DNA from: Shewanella sp. MTB7
GTDB lineage: Bacteria; Pseudomonadota; Gammaproteobacteria; Enterobacterales; Shewanellaceae
Length of the DNA: 64,000 nt
Direction of reading: 5' to 3'
Assembly (NCBI RefSeq): GCF_027571385.1
Contig: NZ_CP085636.1
Coordinates: 310,001-374,000, forward strand
Of this stretch, positions 60,912-64,000 are shown piece after piece. The notes beneath the pieces were generated by a model. The model did no database searches. It saw only the letters and a program-made list of their open reading frames with translations, and was not told where the DNA came from. The translations under genes were made by a program, and so were the position numbers. How positions within the stretch are numbered: position 1 is the stretch's first letter; every line of letters begins with the position of its first letter.

Positions 60912-62588
60912 ATGATTGTTAAACATAAGTTGAAACTAAGCTCTTTGGTTATTGCATTAAGCTGTGGTGTCGCTCCGATGGTGACATTCGGTGTTATGGC
61001 TGAGACTATCAGCCTAACAGGTACAGATCTAACTATTGAGCAACTGCTTAAAGTTCAAAGTGGTGAAGCGAACGTTACAGTAAGTCAAAAAGGTAAGCAG
61101 AACATTCAGGACAGTTTTGATCTGTTGATGGATTCTGCTCGTCAAGGAACACCTGTTTACGGTCTAACTGTTGGCGTTGGTAAGAACAAAGATACCGAGG
61201 TTTTCGGTAAAGATGGCAAGATGTCTGATGAAGCTGTAAAGCTATCTGAAGACTTCAACCGTGACATGCTATTCACTCACGCCGCAGCATCTGGCGAGCC
61301 AATCGATCAATCAGTAGTGCGTATGGCGATGACTATTCGCCTAAACCAAATTGCTACTGGTCATGTTGGTGTTCAGTCTGACGTTGCTCGTTTGTACGAA
61401 CAGTTCGTCAACAAGAACATCATCCCTGTCGTTCCTTCAAATGGTTCAGTGGGCCTTTCAGATATCCTATTAGCATCGCACATAGGTGCAGCTATGATGG
61501 GCGAGCATGAAGTGTTCTATAAAGGCGAACGCATGCCAGCTGCTAAGGCGCTAAAAGCTGCGGGTATTAAGCCGCTAATACCATTTGGTAAAGATGGCTT
61601 ATCTATCCTTTCTAACAACGCTATATCAACAGCGCAGTTAGTACATGCTATGGGTCAAGCGGAGCAGTTGCTTGAGTTCTCTCCTAAGCTTATTGCTGCG
61701 GGTCTCGAATCTATCAATGGTAATATCAGCCCAATTCTTCCCCATACGCTAGACGCTCGTCCTATGCCACATGTACAGGAAGTGGGTAACGACATCCTTA
61801 ACAACCTTGAAGGTGGTTACCTATTCCAACGTGACGAAAATCGTCCTCTACAAGACAGTCTGTCATTTCGTGGCGCCCATTGGCCTGTAGCTAATGCTAT
61901 CAGCCAGTACAACAACCTTGAAGAGTTGGTACACATTCAGATCAATAGCTCTGACGATAACCCAACGGTATACCTGAATGCTAAGCACTCACGTTTCAAC
62001 AAGTATCCACAAGTTGAACAGTACTTCACTGATGGCAAGGTATCTGGTGCGATTAACTCGTCTGCTAACTTTGACACTATTCAGTTAGCAACGACGACTG
62101 AAGCGTTCAGCATCGCGATGGCTCAGTTAGGTAAATACTCATCAAATCGTCAAATTAAGATGATCGATCCATACTTCACCGGTCTACCACGTTCGCTTGT
62201 GAATCCAGATGATACCAATGGCCAGAGTTTCTATACGCTGCAAAATGGTTTCACTGCACTATTTGTTAATATCGCCCACGCGTCTAATCCAGTCTCTTTC
62301 TATGGACAGGCTAACCAAGGCGGTATCGAAGATAACTTCAGTAACTTCCATCAGGCTTCTAAGAACTTGACCACTGTTGTTGATGGTGTTTCTTACATCT
62401 ACGCATTCGAGTTAATGACTTATGGTCAAGCATTAGATCTGCAGAAGAAAGTTTATAATCGAGATCTTTCTGATGCTAACAAGGCGCTATTAAAAGGTTT
62501 ACGTGAAACTGTAGAGTTCTATGCTGATGATACCCGTACTTTCACAGTCGACATTGAAGCATCACAAAAATTCTTAATGAAATACTAA
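60912..62588 (+). CDS. Secreted aromatic amino acid lyase-family protein lacking the MIO triad
   Basis: 558 residues with a signal peptide (1-30, cleavage after VMA). Mature part aligns end to end with histidine/phenylalanine ammonia-lyases: catalytic-type Tyr83 in YGLTVGVG, VPSNGSVG (174-181), VFYKGERMPAAKALKAAG, INSSDDNP (344-351), QANQGG (466-471). But the Ala-Ser-Gly triad that makes the MIO cofactor is replaced by LSD (182-184, one residue short), the MIO-side Asn by Ser234-Asn, the Tyr of YSLR by Leu317 (Arg320 kept), the His of NFH by Asp388, and the Glu after ANQ by Gly470. So ordinary ammonia elimination is unlikely; a new lyase, isomerase or binding role is possible. A terminator follows. 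Confidence 0.85.
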   Translation: MIVKHKLKLSSLVIALSCGVAPMVTFGVMAETISLTGTDLTIEQLLKVQSGEANVTVSQKGKQNIQDSFDLLMDSARQGTPVYGLTVGVGKNKDTEVFGKDGKMSDEAVKLSEDFNRDMLFTHAAASGEPIDQSVVRMAMTIRLNQIATGHVGVQSDVARLYEQFVNKNIIPVVPSNGSVGLSDILLASHIGAAMMGEHEVFYKGERMPAAKALKAAGIKPLIPFGKDGLSILSNNAISTAQLVHAMGQAEQLLEFSPKLIAAGLESINGNISPILPHTLDARPMPHVQEVGNDILNNLEGGYLFQRDENRPLQDSLSFRGAHWPVANAISQYNNLEELVHIQINSSDDNPTVYLNAKHSRFNKYPQVEQYFTDGKVSGAINSSANFDTIQLATTTEAFSIAMAQLGKYSSNRQIKMIDPYFTGLPRSLVNPDDTNGQSFYTLQNGFTALFVNIAHASNPVSFYGQANQGGIEDNFSNFHQASKNLTTVVDGVSYIYAFELMTYGQALDLQKKVYNRDLSDANKALLKGLRETVEFYADDTRTFTVDIEASQKFLMKY

Positions 62589-62639
62589 GAATAAATAATA
62601 TAAAAGTTAAGTAAGTTATTATTTAGCTTCTAATAAAGG

Positions 62640-62668
62640 GCATCGAACTTATGCTTCGATGCCTTTTC
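62640..62668 (+). terminator. Rho-independent terminator between lyase-family gene and reductase gene
   Basis: GGCATCGAA (62640-62648) pairs with TTCGATGCC (62656-62664), seven-base loop, TTTT. It would end most lyase transcripts before the reductase, or set a ratio between the two. Confidence 0.88.
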
Positions 62669-62687
62669 GTATTAATAATTATAGTTG

Positions 62688-62702
62688 TAAATATAATTTA
62701 CC
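62688..62702 (+). promoter_or_regulatory. GTAAAT-ATA-ATTTAC inverted repeat before the reductase
   Basis: 15-base inverted repeat about 40 bases upstream of ATG 62742. AT-rich, so chance is possible; candidate regulator site for a separate reductase promoter. Confidence 0.35.
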
Positions 62703-62741
62703 GTTCGATTAAACACTCGTTATTCTTATAAGAGATCTTTA

Positions 62742-64000
62742 TGAAACTTATGTTAAAAAAGTCAGTGCTAGGTGTAGCAGTTGCGCTACCAATAGTATTA
62801 GTTGGTTGTGCAGTAACAAGTGAAATTATTAAATCACAAGGTACGGCTAAAGGTCGGCATGGTGATATCACTGTAGAGACGACTTTCGAAAATGGTAAAG
62901 TAACAGCAATTGATATCGTAAAACAAAAAGAGAATAAAGTGTTATCGGCTGCGGTTTATAAAGACGTTAGGCAAGCAATTATAGATAACAACAGTGTTAA
63001 CGTCGATGGTATCTCTGGTGCAACAGCAACATCTAATGGCTTAAAAAATGCGGTTGCTAAGTCTGCAGAACTAGCAGGTATTACGCTTGTGGCGACTGCT
63101 GTCATCAATGGCGAAAAACTAGTTGCACAACCATCTGAATATACTTATGACGTTGTTGTTATCGGTGCGGGTGGCGCGGGATTCTCTGCTGGTGTTGAAG
63201 CGGTTGAAGCAGGCGTTTCTGCCGTTATCATCGAGAAGCAACCTATCATAGGTGGTAACTCTTTGATCTCAGGCGGGGAAATGAACGTTGCAGGTAGCTG
63301 GGTTCAAAAAAACATGGGTATCACAGACAGCAAGGCGCTGTTTATCGAAGATACGCTAAAGGGTGGCGATTACAAAGGTGACCCGGAAATGGTACGCGTA
63401 ATGGCTGACAATGCGGTTGCAGCAGCCGAATGGTTGCGTGACGACATCAAAGTTGATTTTTACATAGATCAGATCTTCCAGTTTGGCGGTCATTCAGTTA
63501 AACGTGCTGTTATCCCTAAGGGGCACACAGGCGCAGAAGTGCTAAGCAAGTTTGCAATTAAGGCTGAAGAGATTGGTTTGCCTGTTCACACGAACACCAC
63601 CGCAATTAACCTTATCCAAGATGAAGCGGGTCGAGTTGTCGGTGTGAAGGCGATGAAGAATGGCAAGGTTATCACTTACTACGCTAAGAAAGCGGTGGTA
63701 ATGGCTGCTGGTGGCTTTGGTGCTAACATCGAAATGCGTAAGAAGTTCAATCCAGAATACGATGAGCGTTATGGCACGACTAACCATGCTGGAGCGACTG
63801 GTGACGGTATCGTGATGTCTGCAGCTGTTAACGCTAAAACTGCTAACCTAGGCGAGATCCAAGCATACCCAATCTGTAACGCTGAAACAGGTGCTATCGC
63901 CTTGATCGCCGATGCGCGTTTCTTTGGTGCTATCTTAGTTAACCAAGAGGGTAAGCGCTTTGTTGAAGAGCTTGATCGCCGCGATGTCATATCTAACGCT
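62742..64000 (+). CDS. Lipoprotein flavin reductase of the urocanate/fumarate reductase family, N-terminal part
   Basis: 419 residues visible; the gene leaves the window. Lipoprotein signal: lipobox LVGC with Cys23. FMN-binding domain (about 30-130) with [10 protein letters not shown], the ApbE target, so Thr95 should carry covalent FMN. FAD-binding dehydrogenase domain from residue ~135 with [28 protein letters not shown] keeps an Arg but lacks the SHRP-type His seen in fumarate-specific enzymes, and ELDRRD keeps the catalytic-acid Arg. No haem domain is present in the visible part, so electrons must come from a partner such as CymA. Substrate unknown: a 2-enoate (urocanate, cinnamate, acrylate-type). 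ATG 62742 follows AAGAGA. Confidence 0.92.

Follow-up and report, generated by a model that had tools for sequence, protein, structure and literature searches.

Why would the marine-type Shewanella sp. MTB7 encode an exported relative of the ammonia-lyases directly upstream of an exported flavin reductase? The two genes lie in a window of 64,000 nucleotides (G000:C1:310001-374000 of a single-contig 6.37 Mb genome), where a preliminary description had noted two consecutive plus-strand genes for exported proteins. This is borne out: the lyase (558 amino acids; 60912..62588, plus strand) has a signal-like start and the reductase a lipobox, both recognised by eye. We propose, at a confidence about evenly balanced between right and wrong, that the genes form an extracytoplasmic respiratory module in the Shewanella urdA locus, in which periplasmic histidine (or hercynine) would be converted via urocanate to imidazole propionate. 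The exported lyase, which lacks the 4-methylideneimidazole-5-one (MIO) cofactor, would act on an imidazole amino acid (L-histidine is the likeliest) and remove its alpha-nitrogen group, releasing urocanate in the periplasm. For catalysis without MIO, the protonated imidazole could serve as the electron sink. The lipoprotein UrdA would then reduce urocanate to imidazole propionate, using respiratory-chain electrons that pass via covalent flavin mononucleotide (FMN).

A MIO-less lyase beside a probable urocanate reductase

The lyase matches PF00221 above the cut-off (367 bits in a profile search of the genome), and its assignment to the ammonia-lyase family is correct as far as homology goes. 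The preliminary description had not seen, however, that the Ala-Ser-Gly triad is absent. The region where MIO would form (61443..61481, plus strand) reads GSVGLSDILLASH, compared with GSVGASGDLAPLAH in the HutH of the same genome, and among 439 aligned sequences the triad was identified only in L001 and L002. The score against the HutH model TIGR01225 (240.3 bits) is under the cut-off of 539.15. L002 (G000:C1:400096-401460, 26 kb beyond the downstream end of the window) is a MIO-type lyase that falls below the cut-offs of the models for HutH and for phenylalanine and tyrosine ammonia-lyases.

By sequence and, in a structure model, by fold, the nearest solved relative of the window lyase is ergothionase (Treponema denticola, 6s7j/6s7q). 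The ergothionase core, six residues that the T. denticola clade shares with ergothionases supported by gene context, is complete, with Y83, K93, D94, H123, R320 and E473 in the places of Y54, K64, D65, H84, R281 and E412; all six are retained in 319 of the 325 sequences aligned. A loop common to ergothionase (61158..61193, plus strand; low model confidence for residues 89-93) contains Y83 and the K93-D94 motif. The Lys384 and Ala408 of the ergothionase clade (T. denticola numbering, used below for pocket pairs) are not conserved. They are replaced by N445 (62244..62246) and Q469 (62316..62318, both plus strand). The N-terminal region combines a basic segment with a hydrophobic core, and an A-x-A-like site is seen around residue 30. 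We consider approximately residues 1-30 (60912..61001, plus strand) to be a putative signal peptide, judged by eye; the pattern is common to many homologues, and model confidence is low for residues 1-21. The protein can be placed, from its sequence, as a probable exported MIO-less relative of ergothionase with a switched pocket. Database sources name such lyases generically as ammonia-lyases, and the closest relatives (among the best 80 of 242 stretches) are from Shewanella.

Only the first 420 of 586 reductase codons are in the window (62741..64000, plus strand; open at the window end). The 3' part, which the preliminary description had wanted, was recovered from the genome DNA. The stop lies 501 bases beyond the window (L005:8501, or window coordinate 64501 if extended) and is followed by a terminator-like hairpin (L005:8520-8543) and a gene on the opposite strand. 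Both domains expected of a urocanate/fumarate reductase with covalent FMN and flavin adenine dinucleotide (FAD) were identified: FMN_bind (PF04205, 46.7 bits, cut-off 22; residues 38-107, 62852..63061, plus strand), with the flavinylation motif DGISGATAT, and FAD_binding_2 (PF00890, 244.8 bits, cut-off 20.4). The lipobox cysteine is C23 (62807..62809, plus strand; LVGC read from the sequence). The best solved relative is S. oneidensis UrdA (6t85), at 755 bits; flavocytochrome fumarate reductases reach at most 295. PMC7921117 lists the UrdA active site as Glu177, Phe243, Tyr373, Asp388, Arg390, Phe391, Arg411, His520 and Arg560, and notes a lack of Glu177 conservation among the UrdAs of the gut. 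All nine residues are identical in the window reductase, which carries the urocanate signature and not that of fumarate reductases and is, by these residues, UrdA-like. The product of the lyase is read as urocanate because its partner is UrdA.

Three ApbE matches were identified in the genome, as was a second UrdA-like protein (57% identical) beside an OMP254-type gene, with no lyase in the 15 kb fetched around it. A tetraheme cytochrome of the NapC/NirT family (window 52562-53128, 8 kb upstream; below cut-offs), presumably CymA-like, is a possible electron donor to UrdA.

Linkage to UrdA and the pocket pair

The proposed module had been staked on co-occurrence of the two families, and this proved frequent. 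In the lyase group (78 distinct loci from the 80 best of 242 confirmed stretches), a related FAD reductase lies within 8 kb of the lyase in 62 loci and is missing from 16. Among 129 Shewanella genomes, lyase matches (E 1e-100 or better) were obtained in 44 and UrdA in 38. A window-type lyase (64-100% identical, all with Asn/Gln; the window and L115-L124) was identified in 11, and in 11/11 of these UrdA is encoded in the same orientation no more than 5 kb away (Fisher p 4.5e-7, relatedness uncorrected). The lyase-UrdA module as such is well supported. Together with the urocanate signature, the co-occurrence lends support to the earlier suggestion that the pair may make and then respire an unsaturated acid outside the cytoplasm.

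The two pocket positions change together. In the alignment of 439 sequences (effective number 101), corrected mutual information, which removes relatedness only in part, ranks 384 and 408 third among 118,828 column pairs. The pairs are Lys/Ala (252 sequences), Asp/Glu (135, a count inflated because one search used an Asp/Glu lyase as query), Asn/Gln (22), Val/Ala (11), Asn/Glu (5), Gln/Ser (5) and a few others. Position 408 is four residues N-terminal of the conserved Glu412. We take Met382, His83 and Glu414 of HutH to surround the imidazole ring, which would place both pocket positions near the ring. Five sequences found with the T. denticola ergothionase (P0218, P0225, P0231, P0238 and P0239) combine an Asn/Glu pocket with Tyr442, another possible specificity switch. 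Three MIO-less Enterococcus lyases (L061, L063 and L066) have a Val/Ala pocket and no signal-like start; that of L061 is beside CoA-transferase-like and FabK-like genes, suggesting a CoA-linked reduction route.

Pocket type is paired with the partner gene. In the 78 loci plus the window, UrdA is within 5 kb of 8/9 Asn/Gln and 4/4 Asp/Glu lyases and of 0/52 Lys/Ala lyases. The reductase nearest to a Lys/Ala lyase has Gly373 and Gln388 in 51/52 cases, and a matching tetraheme cytochrome is within 8 kb in 52/52. In Sutterella seckii (L071) UrdA is 7.2 kb from a Lys/Ala lyase, but an Asp/Glu lyase (L147) adjoins that UrdA; this is a fifth Sutterellaceae Asp/Glu lyase with a UrdA-like reductase, visible in part. 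The same holds for loci taken from whole genomes, some of which are already in the 78-locus set (Asn/Gln with UrdA in L157-L159, and 19/19 Lys/Ala loci, L125-L143). A Phe388-type reductase is beside the lyase of a third class, Gln/Ser, in 4/4 loci with a visible reductase (L154, L156, L160 and L161). These lyases also have an altered loop, such as YGLTVNYGALKD, and a tetraheme cytochrome accompanies the Phe388-type FAD reductase. The two UrdA-linked groups occupy separate parts of the lyase tree.

These patterns raise a wider possibility, which we hold more tentatively than the module and think somewhat less likely than not: that MIO-free extracytoplasmic histidine ammonia-lyases exist and arose at least twice, each time from an exported ergothionase-like ancestor through one switch of the pocket pair (Lys/Ala to Asn/Gln, Asp/Glu or Ile/Ala). 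Each pocket class would be matched by its downstream enzyme (UrdA for urocanate, the Gln388-type reductase with tetraheme cytochrome for thiourocanate, and the Phe388-type reductase for a third substrate), so that lyase and reductase together would form a specificity code for anaerobic respiration. If true, a two-residue rule would separate ergothioneine-degrading from urocanate-forming lyases, and reductases are predicted for thiourocanate and for a third acid.

Histidine and its rivals as possible substrates

Evidence that histidine is the urocanate source comes from other bacteria. According to a 2026 preprint (PMC13320830), Parasutterella excrementihominis forms imidazole propionate from labelled histidine, and hutH adjoins urdA in Burkholderiaceae; the words MIO, periplasm and signal peptide were not found in its main text. 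The P. excrementihominis genome analysed encodes three proteins of the lyase family, each MIO-less and with a signal-like start. With four relatives, it has 13 PF00221 proteins (five Asp/Glu, five Lys/Ala and three Gln/Ser), and Ala-Ser-Gly was identified in 0/13. We infer that the hutH of the preprint is the Asp/Glu lyase, because that lyase sits beside urdA. A MIO-less lyase of this group also occurs in 142 of 5,426 complete Escherichia coli genomes. In strain SCU-301 (L176:5839-7509) it has an Ile/Ala pocket and a signal-like start and is part of a hutU-hutI-hutG operon; the 13 kb read around it contains no further annotated lyase. The HutU of this operon passes its own cut-off and not that for thiourocanate hydratase. 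DNA like Shewanella hutH was identified in 11/5,426 E. coli genomes, only on plasmids and each match covering 25% of the query, so that a divergent hutH could be missed. The findings from P. excrementihominis and from the E. coli hut operon favour histidine.

Several observations weigh against the proposed module. We know of no MIO-free histidine ammonia-lyase. The UrdA-linked pocket of P. excrementihominis is Asp/Glu, whereas that of the window is Asn/Gln. The P. excrementihominis genome analysed is a draft and may be of another strain than that of the preprint, and its two matches to PF06050 (2-hydroxyacyl-CoA dehydratase family) make another histidine route possible. The pairing of Asn/Gln with UrdA also has exceptions. 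Ferrimonas senticii (L021) has an Asn/Gln lyase (L021_7) and a diverged Lys/Ala lyase, each with a non-UrdA reductase. In S. abyssi (L020) the Asn/Gln lyase has Ser for the conserved His84, and a Phe388-type reductase and cytochrome precede UrdA, which is 3.3 kb on. A tree-based test found only two independent pairs and has no statistical power. Finally, hercynine would fit UrdA and HutU as well as histidine does.

Hercynine (histidine betaine) is the strongest rival, although we consider it unlikely to be the substrate. A hercynine lyase would keep the trimethylamine elimination of ergothionase and lose recognition of the C2 sulfur, and UrdA would respire the urocanate released with trimethylamine. 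The ergothionase-clade core, kept while K384/A408 are switched, is as this predicts, and the partner is UrdA. From general chemistry, trimethylamine leaves more readily than ammonia when MIO is absent, which also counts against histidine. However, the imidazole propionate of P. excrementihominis derives from histidine itself, and the one paper that a literature search for hercynine with urocanate gave is on a different topic, to judge by its title and the opening of its abstract.

It is decidedly improbable that the window lyase is a plain ergothionase, forming thiourocanate and trimethylamine from ergothioneine, with UrdA reducing the thiourocanate. Ergothionase is its nearest solved relative by sequence and fold, and exported relatives do sit with thiourocanate genes. 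Seven of the 16 reductase-free loci (L082, L084-L088 and L090) match genes of the thiourocanate pathway, and in L084 four lyase neighbours pass the NCBIfam cut-offs for thiourocanate hydratase, thiohydantoin desulfurase, ErtD and ErtE. Thiourocanate hydratase was identified in 5/398 genomes of the phylum, with a family lyase in the fetched stretch of 4/5. Thus, by context, part of the lyase group is ergothionase. However, the pocket of this part is Lys/Ala in 9/9 lyases with thiourocanate hydratase nearby for which it was read (the same seven, L106 and L108). It is also Lys/Ala in 12/13 rows of the T. denticola clade (the remaining row is Lys/Ser) and in 9/9 rows of the clade that holds Pseudochrobactrum. 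The K384/A408 pair is probably required for ergothionase, and the window lyase has Asn/Gln. Furthermore, a second lyase match is present in 8/11 window-type Shewanella genomes, and in the five named ones with the pocket read it is a Lys/Ala lyase with its own reductase. The partner of the window lyase is also indistinguishable from UrdA at the nine active-site residues. (The lyase of L090, a record titled Bacillus subtilis SK6B4, is almost identical to those of Pseudochrobactrum and has the same neighbours; the record is probably mislabelled.)

There is little to recommend a lyase for some other amino acid or betaine, or a non-catalytic binding protein merely co-regulated with UrdA: the group does include Gln/Ser, Val/Ala and Asn/Glu pockets with no assigned substrate, but the core is retained almost throughout, and lyases of two bacterial families, differing in pocket pair, are both linked to UrdA.

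Periplasmic histidine deamination, if correct, matters because the lyase lacks the cofactor needed by known histidine ammonia-lyases. Histidine would be deaminated outside the cytoplasm without the cofactor used by the known enzymes of this fold, which would be a surprise. It would also explain how a gut bacterium with no Ala-Ser-Gly-type lyase found in its genome makes imidazole propionate, a compound raised in type 2 diabetes (abstract of PMC7921117).

The urd locus and its known counterparts

Upstream of the lyase are genes of the urd regulatory set, all on the plus strand. The first encodes a LuxR-type regulator (57915..58700; helix-turn-helix match E 3.7e-7, below the cut-off), followed by an OmpR-type response regulator (58704..59378) and a sensor histidine kinase (59365..60585), whose homologues beside urdA are 74-83% and 56-79% identical, respectively. 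The 152-base gap between lyase and reductase contains a hairpin (62639..62663) that is terminator-like on the minus strand only (consensus scan). Elsewhere in the genome (L004, G000:C1:2403922), a 194-amino-acid open frame matches only the C-terminal part of a lyase and has a Lys/Ala pocket; it looks like a remnant of the second exported lyase.

At lyase-free urd loci of three other Shewanella, a homologue of the LuxR-type gene precedes the response regulator and kinase genes, followed by an OMP254-type gene and urdA. In the window there is no OMP254-type gene between kinase and reductase, and the lyase adjoins urdA. Loci of the window type have the lyase between kinase and UrdA, whereas those of the S. 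chilikensis type have it upstream of the regulator.

UrdA, ergothionase and the HutH-UrdA route were already known. The preliminary description did not recognise the lyase partner from described pathways; it can be placed as a relative of ergothionase, and its exported MIO-less form with a switched pocket, tied to UrdA, is new. The reductase resembles S. oneidensis UrdA in its two domains, lipobox and active site. Canonical HutH shares PF00221 and the overall fold with the window lyase, which lacks the Ala-Ser-Gly triad. The T. denticola ergothionase shares the histidine ammonia-lyase fold without the triad and the same core residues; the window lyase differs in its signal-like start, in N445/Q469 and in having UrdA as neighbour. 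The 'Stickland-like' HutH-UrdA pathway of gut bacteria, as described in PMC13320830, likewise has a lyase gene beside urdA, and the lyases in the P. excrementihominis genome analysed here are MIO-less with signal-like starts.
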